Source of the DNA: Rubrobacteraceae bacterium
GTDB lineage: Bacteria > Actinomycetota > Rubrobacteria > Rubrobacterales > Rubrobacteraceae
Assembly (NCBI GenBank): GCA_013698525.1
Contig: JACCSM010000526.1
Location: 1-12,379, forward strand
Direction of reading: 5' to 3'
DNA length: 12,379 bases
This document shows, in pieces, positions 5,146-11,571 of the stretch. The position numbers and the translations under genes are program-made. The notes beneath the pieces are model-generated. The model saw only the letters and a list, made by a program, of their open reading frames with translations. It searched no databases and had not been told where the DNA came from. Position 1 is the first letter of the stretch, and the number at the start of each line of letters is the position of its first letter.

Positions 5146-5604
5146 TTGCGCATAGTCCTCCAACGCGTCAAGGAAGCCTCCGTCACGGTCGCGAGAGACA
5201 GGATCTCCGGCATTGGCCCAGGCCTCCTGCTGCTGGTCGGCGTCGCCCACGGAGATGGCGAACCAGAAGCGGACTGGCTGGCCGAGAAGATAGCAGGACT
5301 GAGGGTCATGGCCGACCAAGAAGGGAAGATGAACCGCAGCGTCAATGACGTCGGAGCGGCCGTCCTCGCCGTCTCCCAGTTCACCCTCCTCGCGGACACA
5401 CGCAAGGGCAGGCGCCCCAGCTTCGTCGGAGCAGCAGCGCCCGAGGAGGCCATGCGCCTCTTCGACTACTTCTGCGAGCGGCTCCGCGCGGCGGGCGTGG
5501 ACCAGGTCGAGACAGGCCGCTTCGGGGCGATGATGGACGTTGCGCTCGTCAACGACGGCCCCGTTACGATTGTCCTGGACAGCCCGCCGCCTATCGGCGG
5601 TTAG
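5146..5604 (+). CDS. dtd: D-aminoacyl-tRNA deacylase (DTD)
   Basis: This 152-residue protein hydrolyses D-amino acids (and glycine wrongly attached to tRNA-Ala) from tRNA, recycling the tRNA in the cytoplasm. Both family signatures are clear: [17 protein letters not shown] starting at S77, and NDGPVT at 136-141, which carries the Gly-Pro pair that gates the active site. The N-terminus [15 protein letters not shown] is standard, so the TTG at 5146 is taken as start despite being a rare codon; no nearer ATG fits. It is the last gene of the operon, 5 bp after DUF2203. Its TAG stop (5602-5604) is the first three bases of a TCAGC repeat element. Length is normal for the family (about 145-150). Confidence 0.95.
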
Positions 5605-5644
5605 TCAGCACGCCGCCTTGCAGACGGCTTGTCAGCTAGTCAGC
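5602..5644 (+). repeat. TCAGC-octamer element, copy 1 (3' end of dtd)
   Basis: The order of parts is TAGTCAGC (5602-5609), a core from ACGCC to GGC (5610-5628), TTGTCAGC (5629-5636) and TAGTCAGC (5637-5644). The core can pair GCCG with CGGC around a 9-base loop. The first TAG is the dtd stop codon. Similar parts in the same order recur at 10177-10221 (+) and 10451-10503 (-). Confidence 0.8.
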
Positions 5645-5660
5645 TTCTCATCGTAGGAGC

Positions 5661-7388
5661 TCACCCCGGCTGCACCTTGCGATTCGACTCCACGGCAGAA
5701 ACGTCTGCGGGTGCCGTAGAGTGGAGGACCGCGCTACCATGCTGACTAGCTGAAGTGCTGAAATGCTGACCAGCTGACATGCGCCAGTCGCTGTAGCCTC
5801 CTGTGTGGCGGTGCACTTCACCTTCGCTGACCTCGACTATGCCGTCGGCGATACGGTCTAGGAAGTAACGGTCGTGCGAAACGAAGATTACCGTGCCGGG
5901 GAACCGTTCCAGTTCGGCTTCGAGGATCTCCATCGAGTCTATATCGAGGTGGTTGGTCGGCTCGTCGAGAACGAGGCAGTTCGGTTCTCTCAGCATGATC
6001 AGGAGCAGCTGCAACCGGGTGCGCTCTCCTCCGCTCAGTGACGTCACTGGCTCCCTGACCTGCTCGTAGCGGAACAGGAAACGTCCGAGCAACTTTACGG
6101 CCTCGCCTTCGTAGAGAGGCCTGGCGTCACGCACGAGCCCGAGTGGTGAAGCGCCGGGTGGCGGTTCGTCGTTCTGGGCGAGGTAACCGATGTCAATGGA
6201 TGGGCCTGTCCAGCGCTCGCCCTCCGTCGGGGGGAGGATGCCGGCGAGGAGCTTCGCAAGCACGCTCTTGCCCGCGCCGTTCGGCCCGACTATCCCGAGG
6301 CGCTCGCCGCGCGAGACGCTAAGGTCGACACCGATCAGCACGGGGTCATCGTCGAAGGCCACGCTCGCCTCGTGGAGTTCGATTACCTTCTTGCCGCCCC
6401 TCGCCTTGCCGCGGAGCTCCAAACCTATCTTGCGCCGCTCCAGTACGGGGCGTTCGACTTTGTCCATGCGGTCGATCTGACGCTGCTTGTTACGGGCCTG
6501 CTTGATGTGACGTTCGTTTACGACCAAGCTCGCCCAGAGCTTGAAGCGCCGGATCGCCTCTTCGAGCCGCGCTATCTCCTTCTGCTGCGAGACGTAGAGT
6601 TGCTGCTGTCGTTTGAGCTTGAGCTCCCGCGCCACGGTATACGCGGAGTAATTGCCGGGCCACGATGTGATCCTCCCGTCTTCCAGCTCGGAGATCTCCT
6701 CCACCGTCTCGTCAAGCAGGTAGCGGTCGTGGGAAACGATGACGACGGCGCCATCGAACATGCGGACGATCGCCTCCAGCCGCTCCCTGCGTCCGGCGTC
6801 GAGGTGGGCTTCGGGCTCGTCGAGGAGCAAGACGTCGGGACGCCGCGCGAGGCAGGAGGCCAGGACCGCCAGCTTCCGCTGCCCGCCGCTCAGATCCCTC
6901 ATCGGACGATCGATGTCGCCGTCACCAAGACCAAGCGACCTCAGGTAGCCGCGTGACTCACCCTCGAAACCGGGTCCGCCGAGCTCCGTGAAACGGCGTA
7001 GTAACTGCTCCTGACGCTCGAGCACCCGCTGCATGCGGCGCAGGTCGGCCGCCACCCCGGGCGAGCCGAGCTGCTCCTCGCAGGCTCGAAGCTCTCTCTG
7101 GAGATCCGAGATCTCGGGACGCGCAGCGCGTACGACATCCATCGGCGTGCGCCCGTCGCCCTCGACGTACTTGGGTAAAGAAGCGACGCTCAGACCCCGG
7201 CGCCGGATCACCTCCCCCGCGTCGACCTCCTCTGTGCCTTCGAGTATGCGCAGCACCGTGGACTTACCCGCGCCGTTGCCGCCGACGAGCCCGATCCTCG
7301 CCCCCGCGTTCACCCTCATCCCCAGACCCCGCAGCACGGCCCGGCCTCCGTAGAACTTGTCTACGGAACTCAGGCCGATGAGGGTCAT
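5661..7388 (-). CDS. ABC-F family ATPase (first of two), with extended C-terminus
   Basis: This 575-residue soluble twin-ATPase lacks membrane segments. ABC-F proteins bind the ribosomal E site and act in translation or antibiotic protection. The first ATPase domain has Walker A GGNGAGKST (K42), LSGGQ (166-170), Walker B LLLDEPEAHLD (E191) and SHDRYLLD. A charged helical linker covers about 240-325. The second domain has GPNGAGKSV (K374), LSGGE (451-455), [11 protein letters not shown] (E476) and [16 protein letters not shown] replaces the usual DEPTNHLD, and GKSV replaces GKST. The ATG at 7388 has AGGAGG (7394-7399) five bases upstream. The family-like sequence ends near GGYSDWR; residues 537-575 encode five tandem TCAGC octamers followed by unrelated sequence, so this tail is probably translated intergenic DNA. 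The specific role (housekeeping or drug tolerance) is not determinable. Confidence 0.92.
   Translation of the reverse strand: MTLIGLSSVDKFYGGRAVLRGLGMRVNAGARIGLVGGNGAGKSTVLRILEGTEEVDAGEVIRRRGLSVASLPKYVEGDGRTPMDVVRAARPEISDLQRELRACEEQLGSPGVAADLRRMQRVLERQEQLLRRFTELGGPGFEGESRGYLRSLGLGDGDIDRPMRDLSGGQRKLAVLASCLARRPDVLLLDEPEAHLDAGRRERLEAIVRMFDGAVVIVSHDRYLLDETVEEISELEDGRITSWPGNYSAYTVARELKLKRQQQLYVSQQKEIARLEEAIRRFKLWASLVVNERHIKQARNKQRQIDRMDKVERPVLERRKIGLELRGKARGGKKVIELHEASVAFDDDPVLIGVDLSVSRGERLGIVGPNGAGKSVLAKLLAGILPPTEGERWTGPSIDIGYLAQNDEPPPGASPLGLVRDARPLYEGEAVKLLGRFLFRYEQVREPVTSLSGGERTRLQLLLIMLREPNCLVLDEPTNHLDIDSMEILEAELERFPGTVIFVSHDRYFLDRIADGIVEVSEGEVHRHTGGYSDWRMSAGQHFSTSASQHGSAVLHSTAPADVSAVESNRKVQPG
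5741..5780 (-). repeat. Five tandem TCAGC octamers inside the first ABC-F gene
   Basis: Read on the minus strand, the five 8-bp units are ATGTCAGC, TGGTCAGC, ATTTCAGC, ACTTCAGC and TAGTCAGC, with a decayed sixth (ATGGTAGC) following. The phase is exact: 5780-5773, 5772-5765, 5764-5757, 5756-5749 and 5748-5741. The TAG in the fifth unit is out of frame, so translation passes through. The GC-rich core seen in the other copies is absent here. Confidence 0.85.
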
Positions 7389-7487
7389 GCGGACCTCCTA
7401 TCTTTGACAAGACGTATCTTACTAACCGGAGAAATGATGACACCCGTTCGGAACCGGCGCATCACCCATTTGGGTGATCTTCGAGAA
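7389..7487 (-). promoter_or_regulatory. Leader between methyltransferase and first ABC-F gene
   Basis: This 99-bp spacer holds a perfect inverted repeat, ATCACCCA/TGGGTGAT at 7461-7478. It also holds a possible 15-codon minus-strand ORF (7469-7422, ATG to TAG), whose ATG lies in the hairpin, and a TAAGAT hexamer. The strong AGGAGG of the ABC-F gene is at its end. Ribosome-mediated attenuation is known upstream of several resistance-type ABC-F genes, but here no T-run terminator and no Shine-Dalgarno for the small ORF are visible, so any control role is a guess. Confidence 0.3.
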
Positions 7488-8285
7488 CTAAGCACCCTGC
7501 ACCAGACCTTCGACGTACACGGTGGCAGGACGTGTGTAGCCCTCGCTCAGGATCCTACCGCGCATGGCCTCGCGGCTCTCGCGTAACCGCCGCGCTGTCG
7601 CCGGCGGCAACGAGAACACTTCTGTAGGTTCGTCTTCGGCCAGGACCAGCTTTCCGAGGTGACGGATTCGCTGTGGTGGAAATACCTGCCACCGCACGTC
7701 CGTGAGTAGCTCCTCGTGCAAGTCTACGAGACGTTGTGGCGGCCCGATCCCGTAGGGCTCGCTTGCGTACGCCTCACGCCTCAACTCCGCCTCCAGCCTC
7801 TCGTCTTCGAGCTGTACTGCATCCTCGGAGTCGACGAAGTCGCCCGTCGCCACCCTGCCGCCTGGCCGTGCCGCAGAGTGGAGTGCCGCGAGCGCATCTT
7901 CCGCCGTCCTCTCCTTTACGTCCAGCTCGTGAAAGAGGCCGGAGGAGTAGACGAGGTCGAAGGTTGCTGAGGCAAACGGCATCCCGAAAACGTCACCCGC
8001 GAGAAGATGGACCGGGGCTACGAACTCCGCCTTGCCAAGAGAAGCTTGCGTCTCATCGACACGTTCCGCGTCCACGTCGATCGCGGTGACGCTACCGCCT
8101 TCTCCTATCCGCTGGCTGAGGCCTTCGACCCAGAGCGGTGAGGAGCCTCCGGCGTAGAGTACATCGAGGTCCCTGATGTCCCCGAGGAGGTCAAGCTCGC
8201 GGTCGCAGAAGGCGATGAGGTCGTCTTCGAGTTCCTCTCGCTCTTCCGGCGTCAGAGGGTCACCTTTGTATAATCTCCTCGTCAT
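7488..8285 (-). CDS. SAM-dependent methyltransferase, class I
   Basis: This 265-residue protein has a Rossmann-type methyltransferase core. The first strand and loop are LDVLYAGGSS (40-49), followed by helix WVEGLSQRI. The acidic residue that would hold the ribose is in VTAIDVD (D70), then GDVFGMPF (97-104), and the strand FDLVYSSGLFHEL. The loop AGGSS departs from the usual GxGxG. A helical N-terminal stretch and a C-terminal segment (QRLVDLHEELLTDVRWQVFPPQRI) probably shape the substrate pocket; the substrate is unknown. I chose the ATG at 8285. The frame is open 42 codons further, but those codons are antisense to the second ABC-F gene and look random. The start codon overlaps the ATG of that divergent gene. 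No Shine-Dalgarno is present, so translation may be leaderless or weak. Confidence 0.75.
   Translation of the reverse strand: MTRRLYKGDPLTPEEREELEDDLIAFCDRELDLLGDIRDLDVLYAGGSSPLWVEGLSQRIGEGGSVTAIDVDAERVDETQASLGKAEFVAPVHLLAGDVFGMPFASATFDLVYSSGLFHELDVKERTAEDALAALHSAARPGGRVATGDFVDSEDAVQLEDERLEAELRREAYASEPYGIGPPQRLVDLHEELLTDVRWQVFPPQRIRHLGKLVLAEDEPTEVFSLPPATARRLRESREAMRGRILSEGYTRPATVYVEGLVQGA
8269..8274 (+). promoter_or_regulatory. -10 element of the second ABC-F gene
   Basis: A perfect TATAAT ends nine bases before the ABC-F ATG at 8284, so transcription should begin at or within a few bases of the start codon. No Shine-Dalgarno lies between. A convincing -35 is not visible (TTCCGG at 8244-8249 is 19 bp away). 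The element lies inside codons 4-6 of the divergent methyltransferase gene. Confidence 0.55.
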
Positions 8286-10179
8286 GAAGGTGATTGTCGC
8301 AAGAGATCTCGTAAAGTACCACGGTGGAGACCTAAAGGTCCTCTCCGGCGCGACGCTCTCGGTCGAGGCCGGGGAGAAGGTCGGGCTGGTCGGGCGCAAC
8401 GGGGCCGGCAAGACGACCCTGCTCGATATTCTGGCCGGGCACTCGGAGCCCGACTCGGGCTCGGTCGAGCATCCGGGCGGCGCGAAGGTCGGGATGACGG
8501 CCCAAAAACTCTACGCCGGAGAACGGGGCGCCCTCTCTTTGGAGCAGGAGATCATCTCCGCCTTCAAGCCCCTGATGGTCCGCGAGAAGGAACTTGATGA
8601 GCTCGGTACACGCCTCTCCGAGGACCCTTCGAACGCGCTCATGGAACGATATGGCAAGCTTCAGAGCGAGTTCGAGCGGGACGGCGGTTACGAGTACCGC
8701 GCGCGGGCGGCCTCGACCATATCTTCTCTGGGGTTCGCCCCTGAGGACTGGAAGCGTCCGGTGGGCTCGTTCTCGGGCGGCGAGCAGGGCCGCATCGCCC
8801 TGGCCAGATTGCTGATGGAGGAGCCGGATCTCATCCTCCTCGACGAGCCGACCAACCACCTCGATTTGCGCGCCATAGAGTGGCTCGAGAACTTCGTCAA
8901 GGGGGCGAGGAGCGCCGTCCTGGTCGTCTCCCACGACCGCTACTTCCTCGACGCCGTCGCCGGTTCGATCCTCGAGCTCGAAGATGGCCGTCTCGACCGC
9001 TACCCCGGCAACTACAGCAAGTACGTGGCCGAGAAACGGGCCCGCGAGGAACAACTAGCCCGCAAGGCGAAGGCCAACGCCGAACGCAGGGCGCAACTCG
9101 AACGCTTTGTCGAGAAGAACCGGGCCAAGGCGAGTAAGGCCAGCCAGGCCAGGAGCAAGCAGAAGCTACTCGACAGGATGGAGAAGATAGAGGACCCGAG
9201 GACATCCTCGAAGAACGTCAGGCTCGACCTCGGCGGGGAGACCGCAAGGGCCGGACGCGTCGTGCTCGAGATGGAGGACGTCCGCTACGCCCACGACGAC
9301 GCTAACGAACCACTCCTGGAAGGCTTAGACCTCGTTATCGAACGCGGGGAGAGGGTTGCCTTGCTCGGCCTCAACGGGACCGGGAAGAGCACGATCATGC
9401 GCCTCGCCACAGGCGAACTCTCCCCCCAGAGAGGCATGGTCAGGCCAGGCAACAACGTGAGGCTCGCCTACCAGGATCAGCAGTTAGCCCGCCTCGACGA
9501 CGCCAAGACCGTCCTTGGGGAGGCGATGGACGCGACGGGGTTCGACGCCCCCGAGGCCCGCGACCTTCTCGGCGCCTTCCTGTTCTCCGGCGAGGACGTC
9601 TTCAAGAAGGTGAGATCCCTCTCCGGCGGCGAGAGGAACCGTCTGAGCCTGGCCGAGATCGTGGTGAGCGGTGCGAACCTGCTGTTGCTCGACGAGCCTA
9701 CCAACAACCTCGACATCCCTGCCCGCGAGGCTCTGGAAGATGCGCTGCTGGAGTACAGCGGCACGATGTTTTTCATCTCCCACGACCGCTACTTCCTCCG
9801 CAAGCTGGCGACCAGGATCGTGGATCTGGAAGGCAGGAAACTCGAGAACTACCTCGGTGGCTACGAGTACTACCGCTCCCACCTCAGGCTGGAGGCGGGC
9901 CCGAAGGGCAGCAAGGGCCGCCAGCGCCGGCGCGTGAGGCCCGGCCAGAGCAAAGAGCAGGGCATCCTTGCCACCCGCCTCGTCGCTGTGGAGGGCGAGA
10001 TCGACGCAACCGAGCGCCGCGTGGCCCGCCTCGAAAAGGAGCTGGCCACCTCAGAGCTCTACTCCGACGGCAAACGCTCCCGCGAAGTCATCACCGAGCA
10101 TCGTCAGCTGAAAGGCTTGCTCGACGGCTTGTACGCCGATTGGGAGCAGCTACTCGAAGAGGCGGGAGAAGATAGCTAG
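8284..10179 (+). CDS. ABC-F family ATPase (second), Uup-like with C-terminal coiled coil
   Basis: This 631-residue soluble twin-ATPase is predicted to act on the ribosome. Domain 1 has GRNGAGKTT (K43), FSGGEQ (163-168), [11 protein letters not shown] (D187, E188) and SHDRYFLD. The linker at about 245-300 is very basic ([18 protein letters not shown]), as in the P-site-tRNA-interacting motif of ABC-F proteins. Domain 2 has GLNGTGKST (K368), LSGGE (446-450), [12 protein letters not shown] (E471) and SHDRYFLR. After a basic stretch ([13 protein letters not shown]) comes a C-terminal helical hairpin ([22 protein letters not shown]), resembling the Uup/EttA-relative C-terminal coiled coil. NNLD replaces NHLD in the second site. 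The ATG at 8284 gives the standard family N-terminus; the open frame upstream is antisense to the methyltransferase. It probably has a leaderless mRNA. The TAG stop (10177-10179) begins a TCAGC repeat. Confidence 0.93.
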
Positions 10180-10221
10180 TCAGCATGTCAGCACGCCACG
10201 GCTTCGCCTTCGCTTGTCAGC
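10177..10221 (+). repeat. TCAGC-octamer element, copy 2 (3' end of second ABC-F)
   Basis: TAGTCAGC (10177-10184) and ATGTCAGC (10185-10192) are followed by a core starting ACGCC and ending CGC (10193-10213), then TTGTCAGC (10214-10221). The first TAG is the ABC-F stop codon. The core differs from copy 1 in sequence but keeps ACGCC at its start and GC immediately before TTGTCAGC. Confidence 0.78.
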
Positions 10222-10297
10222 TTTCGGCTGTTCGCGCTTGACGGGCGACTTCCGGAAGGCACTCTTGCCGGTGCTCCGGGCAGTACACCATTACCCG

Positions 10298-10305
10298 GCT
10301 GACTT
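10298..10305 (-). repeat. Single TCAGC octamer after tRNA-Pro
   Basis: AAGTCAGC on the minus strand, preceded by CTAGC, lies 11 bases past the 3' end of tRNA-Pro. A CTTTTC follows the tRNA directly. The rest of 10222-10297 holds no gene I can support; it contains the 10-bp palindrome CTTCCGGAAG at 10249-10258. Confidence 0.5.
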
Positions 10306-10315
10306 GCTAGAAAAG

Positions 10316-10389
10316 TCGGGACGAGAGGATTTGAACCTCCGACCTCCTCGTCCCGAACGAGGCGCGCTACCAGGCTGCGCTACGTCCCG
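10316..10389 (-). tRNA. tRNA-Pro (anticodon CGG)
   Basis: On the minus strand the acceptor stem is CGGGACG with CGTCCCG. The D arm is GCGC-AGCCTGGTA-GCGC and the anticodon stem CCTCG/CGAGG around TTCGGGA, giving CGG. The T arm is GGAGG-TTCAAAT-CCTCT with one G-T pair, and the discriminator is A. Length is 74 and CCA is not encoded. It reads CCG codons. Confidence 0.95.
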
Positions 10390-10401
10390 ACTGAGAGAGC
10401 T

Positions 10402-10429
10402 ATTATAGCAGTCAGCCACCAGCCGTCAG
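10402..10429 (-). promoter_or_regulatory. Promoter of tRNA-Pro
   Basis: A perfect TATAAT (10407-10402, minus strand) lies 12 bp before the tRNA. Sixteen bases upstream is CTGACG (10429-10424), matching four of six -35 positions. That -35 lies inside the GTCAGCC heptad array. Confidence 0.65.
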
Positions 10430-10431
10430 CC
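10411..10431 (+). repeat. Heptad array GTCAGCC/ACCAGCC/GTCAGCC
   Basis: Three direct 7-bp units lie upstream of tRNA-Pro, the middle one with two changes. The GTCAGC core is shared with the octamer elements but the unit length is 7 and the strand is opposite to the neighbouring copy at 10451-10503. Confidence 0.55.
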
Positions 10432-10450
10432 ACGACTCGCGCACGCGAAA

Positions 10451-10503
10451 GTTGAAATGCTGACAAGCCGCCAAAGGCGGCGTGCTGACCGGCTGAAATG
10501 CTA
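10451..10503 (-). repeat. TCAGC-octamer element, copy 3 (3' end of amidase)
   Basis: Read on the minus strand, the amidase stop TAG plus C (10503-10500) is followed by ATTTCAGC (10499-10492) and CGGTCAGC (10491-10484). Next is the core from ACGCC to GGC (10483-10467), then TTGTCAGC (10466-10459) and a decayed ATTTCAAC (10458-10451). The core contains a perfect GCCGCC/GGCGGC hairpin around TTT. No T-run follows. Confidence 0.82.
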
Positions 10504-11571
10504 TACGGCTATGAACGCTGTATCGCGGCCGGCGTAGAGTTCGAGGGCGCTGGCTATGGCTTCGGCGACGGTTGCGGGATAGTAGGGGTCGGAGGCGAGG
10601 TCTAGCTCTTCGGCGTTGGTAAGGTGCAGGGGCTCGAGGATTATTGCCGGGATGTTCGTCTCGCGCAGGATCTCGAAAGACCTGCCGAACTCCCCGATAT
10701 CGGGGGTACCCAGAGTCTGGCTGATGCACCGCTGCAGGTAGGCTGCGGCCATCCTGCCCCTGTGCGACTGGTAGCCGAGCCGCCCGAAATAGAAGGAAGC
10801 CGTCCCGCAGGCGGTCGGGGTCGAGTGGGAAGCGTGGTGGACGGAGACGATCATCTTCGCCCCCGAGGAGTTGGCGAGGAAGGCCCTGTCGGCCGCCGAG
10901 ACCTCCTCGTCCCCGCTTCTGGTCAACAGGACTTCTCTGGCAGGCAGGATCTGGGCCAGCTCCTGGGCCACGGCGAGGTTCAAATCTGCCTCGGAGATCC
11001 CGGTCGGGCTCGCATACCCTGTGTCCCTGCCGCCGTGGGCGGCGTCGACGACTATGGACCCCGAGAAGAGGTCATCGGTGAAATACCCTCCGCTCTTGTC
11101 CGGGAGCTGGTGGGTTCCGAGAGACTGTGCGGCGAAGGTGTTCAGAACTTTGAAGACCGTGGCATCGACCACCCCGTCATCCTGCAGGCCAGCGTTCCTC
11201 TGGAAGTCACGAACGGCCCTTACGGTACGCGGGTCGAACAGCCCGTTGACGGCGCCGGGGTCGAACCCGAGGTCGTCGAGCATCTGCTGGAGTTCGATGA
11301 CGTCGGCGCCCCTGAAGGGCGGTTGCCTGAGGTATAGCAGGCGTCCTCCCGGCCTGTAGCAGGCCTCCACGATCTCGCGCCAGCTGATAGGACCGACGAG
11401 CCCGTCGGCGAGGAGACCCAGGTGCTGCTGGAAGGCCCTAACGGCGAGCTCAGTCCTCTCCCTGAAGACGCCGTCTATGCCCCTGTTTCCAAGGTCGAAG
11501 CCAAGAGCCTGCAGACGGGTCTGGAGGTCGACGACCTCACGCCCCCTGTCTCCCCTACGCAGCGTACGCAC
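10501..11571 (-). CDS. CwlM-like N-acetylmuramoyl-L-alanine amidase with two PG-binding domains
   Basis: This 356-residue protein has two PG_binding_1 domains (about 3-66 and 75-145) followed by an Amidase_3 domain (about 170-350). The first begins LRRGDRGREVVDLQTRLQAL and the second has ADVIELQQMLDDLGFDPGAV and TVRAVRDFQRNAGL. Amidase_3 enzymes are zinc hydrolases that cut the bond between muramic acid and the stem peptide. The expected zinc ligands are visible: H179 in VVDAAHGGRDTG, E194 in ISEADLNL, and H245 or H246 in SVHHAS. The catalytic-type Glu is E313 in IILEPLHLTN. No signal peptide or membrane helix is seen. This is the architecture of mycobacterial CwlM, a cytoplasmic regulator of MurA thought to be catalytically inactive; here the active-site residues look intact. 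The GTG at 11571 is the only sensible start. The thioredoxin neighbour supports the CwlM assignment. Confidence 0.87.
   Translation of the reverse strand: MRTLRRGDRGREVVDLQTRLQALGFDLGNRGIDGVFRERTELAVRAFQQHLGLLADGLVGPISWREIVEACYRPGGRLLYLRQPPFRGADVIELQQMLDDLGFDPGAVNGLFDPRTVRAVRDFQRNAGLQDDGVVDATVFKVLNTFAAQSLGTHQLPDKSGGYFTDDLFSGSIVVDAAHGGRDTGYASPTGISEADLNLAVAQELAQILPAREVLLTRSGDEEVSAADRAFLANSSGAKMIVSVHHASHSTPTACGTASFYFGRLGYQSHRGRMAAAYLQRCISQTLGTPDIGEFGRSFEILRETNIPAIILEPLHLTNAEELDLASDPYYPATVAEAIASALELYAGRDTAFIAV

Follow-up and report, generated by a model that had tools for sequence, protein, structure and literature searches.

TCAGC octamer arrays at gene ends in Rubrobacteraceae: the arms of dispersed palindromic repeats that are probably mobile

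The stretch of DNA analysed here (the window) comprises positions 1 to 12,379 of contig JACCSM010000526.1 from a Rubrobacteraceae bacterium (GCA_013698525.1), a draft genome that is 80% complete (G000; the contig is our C470). A sequence-only reading of the window had described four elements built from 8-bp units of the form NNKTCAGC at the 3' ends of genes it named dtd, ABC-F 1, ABC-F 2 and amidase, and a single unit behind tRNA-Pro. These gene names are backed by Pfam matches: Tyr_Deacylase (dtd), ABC_tran twice (ABC-F 1 and 2) and Amidase_3 (amidase). Our study identifies the four pieces, the tRNA-Pro unit and one overlooked arm as the arms of three two-armed palindromic elements, composed as follows.

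5602-5783: element 1, whole; fills the gap between dtd and ABC-F 1
5602..5644, + strand: left arm of element 1, at the dtd TAG (5602-5604); TAGTCAGC, hairpin module, TTGTCAGC, TAGTCAGC
5645..5740, no strand: centre of element 1, 96 nt; one of 49 larger centres
5741..5783, - strand: right arm of element 1; read in frame by ABC-F 1, encodes its C-terminus
10174-10308: element 2, whole; gap between ABC-F 2 and tRNA-Pro, with a putative pairing of its arms
10174..10221, + strand: left arm of element 2; AGC, TAGTCAGC (its TAG is the ABC-F 2 stop), ATGTCAGC, hairpin module, TTGTCAGC
10222..10297, no strand: presumed centre of element 2, assigned by position
10298..10308, - strand: putative right arm of element 2, a single unit AGC AAG TCAGC behind the tRNA-Pro gene
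10407-10503: element 3, whole; gap between tRNA-Pro and amidase
10407..10430, + strand: left arm of element 3, AGC-AG-TCAGC-CACCAGC-CG-TCAGC, upstream of tRNA-Pro; units at 10411 and 10425
10431..10450, + strand: centre of element 3, 20 nt, CACGACTCGCGCACGCGAAA (consensus about CAGGRCTTGCRCANGCGAAA)
10451..10503, - strand: right arm of element 3; amidase TAG at 10501-10503, perfect 6-bp hairpin module

The plan of TCAGC-ACG, hairpin and CTTGTCAGC is present in three arms (5605-5636, 10188-10221 and 10459-10488), in line with the shared unit-core plan that had been proposed. The TAG stops of dtd (5602-5604), ABC-F 2 (10177-10179) and the amidase (10501-10503) lie at the outer end of an arm, exactly where they had been placed. 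It had also been recognised that ABC-F 1 reads through its element; because it does so, arm and gap together (5661-5783) encode its final 39 residues. The nearest relatives of the window in an amidase search are Rubrobacteraceae (L087, from the metagenome-assembled genome AVDCRST_MAG58, and L088, L089, L090 and L091), and ABC-F 1 of L087 likewise enters its own arm and stops there. The unit behind tRNA-Pro is present (10298-10308) and is recast here from a solitary copy into the presumed right arm of element 2. The overlooked arm at 10407-10430 escapes our array scan, which collects KTCAGC clusters with at least one 8-bp step, because its units have 7-nt spacing. Folded as RNA, element 3 (10404-10506) forms one long hairpin (-49.6 kcal/mol, z -3.85), and the lone arm of element 2 folds no better than shuffles (z +0.8). 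At gathering scores, Rfam returned two tRNAs only in the window, and no terminator-like match was found on any window element. A sigma-70-like promoter (CTGACG-16-TATAAT, 10402-10429, - strand), the sole match in 5500-10600 where 0.6 are expected, lies upstream of tRNA-Pro; the left arm of element 3 provides the first of its hexamers.

The arrays are a genome-wide feature. The pattern TCAGCNNNTCAGC has 525 matches in the window's genome (279 on the + and 246 on the - strand), and a reversed-pattern control has 1 (1 + / 0 -). We took the sister genome G227 as the genome of L087, since counts and coordinates agree exactly, and sampled 1.467 Mb of it, where the scan found 211 arrays compared with 1 in Markov sequences and 1 in the reversed sequence. 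Four arrays were found by the scan in the window (5602-5644 +, 5741-5780 -, 10177-10221 + and 10459-10499 -), whose first-order Markov versions (n = 1000) contain 0.011 on average and 1 at most; single KTCAGC units are weaker evidence (27 in the window against a mean of 15.7, with 27 reached by 1 of 200 shuffles). Across 396 genomes of the phylum, a three-unit pattern is abundant in the window's genome (168), G227 (186) and Rubrobacter tropicus (116; this is our G195, whose second contig is plasmid NZ_CP045120.1, 100% over 12 kb). It matches 22 times in G206, never in the other five genus members and 1 to 23 times in eleven other genomes of the family; beyond the family, the matches listed are mostly runs of one repeated unit. 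Hairpin modules, counted with patterns that fix the flanks AC and TTGTCAGC and thus place hairpins with other tags outside the count, number 270 in G227 (control 0), 92 in G000, 25 in G206, 14 in R. tropicus and 0-2 in each of the five other genus members. A sister class of TCAGGNN heptamer arrays has 126 matches in G270, 38 in G280 and 28 in R. tropicus, all of the same bacterial family (control 0 in all 39 genomes searched); at several loci in relatives its + and - sites converge. In R. tropicus, 7-nt-spaced TCAGC arrays occur after some 3' hairpins, in addition to the 8-nt class. Among the open-licence papers listed by literature searches, we found no description of such a repeat family for this group.

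The copies follow a common grammar. An arm strings together NNKTCAGC octamers and short hairpin modules (AC-stem-loop-stem-TTGTCAGC), and its outer end is often AGC; a full copy consists of two converging arms flanking a centre. Among 419 spacers of the G227 sample, ATT (118) and ACT (86) are the commonest and NNG types come next; neighbouring spacers are identical in 3 of 100 cases against 14.5 expected, and 76 of the 94 steps among T and G types switch from xxT to xxG or back, with 6 other steps left out. The hairpin cores of G227 include 128 distinct sequences among 197; 99 of the 128 have a stem of 4 bp or more, versus 31 of 128 shuffled ones. Of the triloop cores (n = 73; stem of at least 4, any closing pair), 52 have TNC on the TCAGC strand, and hence GNA on the other, and none the reverse; a comparison set of 90 other intergenic triloop hairpins (C-G closed, stem of at least 5) has 6 TNC and 12 GNA. 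C-GNA-G is an exceptionally stable DNA triloop. ViennaRNA energies rank the observed triloops at chance (means 30.3-32.5 of 64); since they show no energy preference, the idea of a DNA triloop is based on the loop counts together with this known chemistry. With DNA parameters the more stable fold is that of the GCTGA strand in 121 of 128 cores and that of the TCAGC strand in 7; with RNA parameters the numbers are 80 and 11. We also considered complementary spacers between the two arms and rejected them, given that innermost spacers are identical in 7 of 67 pairs, which is the shuffled level (7.7); any spacer common to both arms occurs in 57 pairs against 51.2 +- 2.6 shuffled, a signal that is weak at most.

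The centres fall into recognisable groups. Fifteen arm pairs lie exactly 20 nt apart, and 14 of them have a common centre sequence by eye; a weight matrix built from those 14 and the window copy gives 34 matches in the G227 sample, training copies included, of which 24 are intergenic between TCAGC and GCTGA and 7 weaker ones lie in coding sequence. Larger centres measure 75-135 nt (n = 49). Among these sequences, centre family B has 14 copies in G227 (74-100% identity, query included) and one marginal 28-nt match in G280; the other seven genus members, G000 included, have none at E 0.001. The centre of element 1 does not match it at that threshold. Centre family C has 5 copies in G227 and 4 in G000. 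Larger centres of similar outline but greater divergence are present in R. tropicus.

We examined the placement of the arrays relative to genes, which in the relatives' stretches were called by a simple codon-usage caller, so that gene starts are rough and small genes may have been missed. Of the 211 arrays of G227, 208 lie between genes and the other 3 at contig edges. None is inside a called gene in G227 (0/208) or in R. tropicus (0/19), when overlap with the last 30 nt of a gene is not counted as inside; under this rule the ABC-F 1 arm of the window would count as inside the gene end. Equal occurrence within genes, which the sequence-only reading had named as evidence against itself, is thus not what we see. 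All 56 gaps of G227 with exactly two arms have them in the order + then - (17 convergent, 28 co-directional and 11 divergent), and this convergence (TCAGC...GCTGA) is why we describe the element as palindromic. One arm is found in 86 gaps and three or four in 3; when grouped into elements, 88 of 149 have only one scanned arm. Array density per kb is highest in convergent gaps (2.03), followed by co-directional (0.94) and divergent ones (0.49); 19 of 214 divergent gaps carry arrays. Because sense arms in convergent and antisense arms in divergent gaps follow from geometry alone, only co-directional gaps test strand bias fairly, and there G227 has 54 sense and 51 antisense arms (p = 0.85), that is, no gene-strand bias. 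The claim that every copy reads TCAGC on the coding strand of the gene it follows fails on this count and also in the window, where the arm at 10407-10430 (+) is antisense to both neighbouring genes. The apparent rule arises because either arm reads TCAGC inwards from its outer end, so that any gene end abutted by an arm sees it on the coding strand. In the 400 kb of R. tropicus sampled for arrays, 14 of the 19 are in convergent gaps, 3 are co-directional sense and 2 antisense.

Enrichment at stop codons, the other part of the expectation, is strong: of 127 arms that face a gene 3' end, 66 begin no more than 10 nt from the stop, compared with 6 of the 81 arms that face a 5' end (p = 4e-12). 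At the commonest offset (17 arms), one base separates the stop from the first spacer, and 14 of these 17 read TAG then C, as if the stop were made by a T followed by the AGC of the element. TAG is the stop codon in 42 of the 66 genes that have a sense arm no more than 8 nt away, in 36 of the 61 whose arm is more distant and in 644 of 1406 overall; the excess at near arms is only moderate (p = 0.003). For many of the 48 arms found 12-60 nt from a stop, a long hairpin intervenes between the two. Several stop-adjacent hairpins of G227 use the coding end as one of their sides and have the stop codon within or close to the loop. For tRNA genes we claim no enrichment, as a TCAGC unit lies within 70 nt downstream of 2 of 19 and upstream of 1 of 19 in the G227 sample.

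Comparison among relatives provides evidence of dispersal and turnover. The 25 best-matching element pairs in G227 align over 147-224 bp at 68-83% identity, and alignments of three element sets show common centres amid unrelated flanks. G000 and G227 differ at 8.7% of sites overall (about 91% identity), at 17.7% of fourfold sites and at 10.2% of intergenic sites outside arrays (12 aligned contig pairs). Between them, whole hairpin modules are present or absent at C54, C67 and C60 and swapped at C42, and octamer number differs between homologous arms, e.g. beside the stop at C8. At 3 of 17 places with an array in either genome (ABC-F 2, amidase and C67 near 835), one genome has no TCAGC-type units. 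The comparison of gene 3' ends with relatives that had been suggested bears this out: the ABC-F 2 orthologues of L087, L090 and L091 end in Gly-Leu-stop and have no octamers where the window has Asp-Ser-TAG within the element, and at the amidase end L091 has TCAGG heptamers in place of octamers. After the ABC-F 2 orthologue stop of L091 we observed TTTTTGG/TTCTTGG heptamer arms and then roughly their complement, a third unit type with a converging plan. One locus is an empty site: in G227 (L258) a two-arm element lies between convergent genes whose stops are separated by 266 nt, and in G206 (L278) the element is absent and the stops are separated by 11 nt. The corresponding place in R. tropicus carries a two-arm element unlike that of G227, and in G248 it is a short stretch containing a single TCAGC. 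Another site, C31, is occupied with differing contents in G227, G206 and R. tropicus. A stretch of about 3.4 kb (G227:C42, about 22120-25497) lies between sequences that are near neighbours in G000:C37.

Based on these data, we favour with moderate confidence the reading that the pieces are arms of a dispersed, structured, non-coding and non-autonomous mobile element of some Rubrobacteraceae, similar to REPINs (paired repetitive extragenic palindromic, REP, sequences) or to miniature inverted-repeat transposable elements (MITEs); in other words, this is probably a very small mobile DNA of REP/REPIN type whose construction is unusual. The reading is drawn from the dispersed copies with common centres, the lineage-limited burst, the empty site and the patchy presence. 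Of the three origins that had been offered, a mobile element inserting at stop codons is, on the first three of these grounds, the best supported. An enzyme supplied in trans would move or copy the elements, perhaps using as its substrate one strand whose hairpins have folded, and the arms may then be reshaped through exchange between TCAGC repeats. Survival would occur mainly where harm is small, between convergent genes and just after stops, and an insertion into the last codons might survive if the element supplies an in-frame stop. This abundant repeat family offers a clear case of a palindromic element entering gene ends and supplying stops and C-terminal residues. Thanks to its grammar and its uneven distribution among close relatives, the spread of REP-like repeats without a resident RAYT (REP-associated tyrosine transposase) becomes testable in R. 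tropicus.

Several results weigh against mobility. The scan finds arrays in both genomes at 6 of the 17 places, and by eye TCAGC-type units are visible in both at 14 of them, one with a single unit; the dtd end is occupied in three species. This occupancy is more persistence than plain insertion needs. TCAGC positions differ by 3-8% (reference G227) or 9-17% (reference G000) and spacer positions by 28-46% (39 ungapped units, reference G227) or 38-51% (47 units, reference G000), where the reference-G000 figures include misaligned units and 13 gapped units per direction are left out. Set against the 10.2% of intergenic sites outside arrays and the 17.7% of fourfold sites, the low change at TCAGC may reflect constraint or homogenisation. 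No target duplication was seen by eye at the empty site in G206, a single case, and the burst of centre B was judged by BLAST at E 0.001 while diverged centres exist in R. tropicus. As for a moving enzyme, the Y1 transposase domain PF01797 is present in 2 of 9 genus genomes, not including the element-bearing R. tropicus or G206, and no 8-spaced array lies at the three Y1 loci (about 1.5 kb on each side where the contig allows), which led us to reject a RAYT link; a reverse transcriptase partner was also rejected, with matches in 0 of 9 genus genomes. One Y1 match in G227 (L169) forms an IS605-type pair with a neighbouring TnpB-like gene, and its surroundings contain no 8-spaced TCAGC array. 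It is rather unlikely, in our estimation, that we are dealing with a new kind of mobile repeat that uses folded single-stranded DNA to move, has no HUH or reverse transcriptase partner of a known kind, gains hairpin modules at TCAGC and comes to rest at stop codons; hints in that direction are the TNC triloop bias, the stability of C-GNA-G, the alternating octamer classes and the converging TCAGG class.

A function at the 3' end of the RNA, original or acquired, is possible, and the persistence at some 3' ends, the low TCAGC change and the adjoining hairpins leave room for it. In its strict form, where hairpins and a UCAGC chain end transcription (both ways between convergent genes) or protect the mRNA 3' end and are kept by selection, we hold this explanation, akin to the processing or stability element proposed earlier, to be a possible but tentative one. 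Arms often begin at the stop or right after a long hairpin, convergent gaps are preferred, and occupied ends persist with changing contents (dtd in three species; C31 in G227, G206 and R. tropicus). Of the 763 G227 genes with a gap of at least 50 nt, 73 carry a perfect hairpin of 9 bp or more close to the stop. TCAGC comes after it within 14 nt in 33 of these and a T tract in 6, 3 of the hairpins are themselves modules, and 31 have neither; hairpin clusters without poly-U have been proposed as terminators (PMC8355165). However, the hairpins of R. tropicus (n = 29) are followed by TCAGC in 4, a T tract in 3 and neither in 22, the 19 divergent gaps with arrays and the equality of antisense and sense arms in co-directional gaps do not suit such a role, the close relatives have nearly no hairpin modules, no terminator-like match falls on the window elements and a single arm folds at shuffle level.

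The same arm equality, together with the interruption of the chain by hairpins, makes it very unlikely that the arrays are binding sites for a protein reading TCAGC or UCAGC every 8 nt, such as a Rho-loading site (UC dimers on the coding strand), despite the little change at TCAGC and the large change at spacers; the YC motifs published for Rho (PMC9160355) were counted at a spacing of 9-13 nt. Local slipped-strand growth of the 8-bp unit without mobility is equally improbable. The varying octamer number at homologous arms such as C8 is consistent with it, but the scarcity of identical neighbours, the alternation of two spacer classes, the conserved centres and the presence of related copies at unrelated loci speak against it. 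This earlier option is disfavoured on its own, and as a complete explanation it is refuted by the dispersed centres.

The family was compared with its closest known counterparts. According to PMC3733652, REP sequences, bacterial interspersed mosaic elements and REPINs are short, high-copy intergenic hairpins that are patchy among relatives, and their gap preference (convergent, then co-directional, then divergent) resembles ours. The repeat likewise consists of many short, mostly intergenic palindromes (270 G227 modules, 0/208 arrays in genes), with an inverted pair as the unit (56/56 converging, element 3 folding as one hairpin, but a single scanned arm in 88 of the 149 grouped elements). REP tags belong to the GTAG and CGTC super-families in the same source, whereas the modules counted here, with patterns of fixed flanks, have AC and TTGTCAGC; we do not file the repeat as REP because it lacks this tag and because no RAYT was found for it (PF01797, nine genus genomes), and it also differs in its octamer chains, its centre and its very variable stems. 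MITEs are similar in being non-coding, up to about 250 bp, with inverted arms, dispersed copies and one lineage-specific burst; unlike their fixed terminal repeats, the ends here are modular arrays, no target duplication was seen by eye at the one empty site, and we know of no parent transposon, with no systematic search made for a long element with the same ends. Intrinsic terminators and hairpin clusters share hairpins close after stops (PMC8355165), but among strong 3' hairpins only 6 in G227 (n = 73) and 3 in R. tropicus (n = 29) precede a T tract, and arrays also occur in divergent gaps with antisense arms equal. Cyanobacterial short tandemly repeated repetitive (STRR) sequences, which are degenerate heptamer arrays, are a further likeness. 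With them and with the TAACTGA repeats of Beggiatoaceae, the family has in common very short intergenic tandem units in high genomic number. According to PMC4679880, most of the sets of identical 7-nt TAACTGA units in the genome studied lie just upstream of starts. The repeat described here differs from both in its 8-nt unit with a free, variable spacer, its hairpin modules, its converging arms and its position at gene 3' ends (66/127 near stops, 6/81 near starts).

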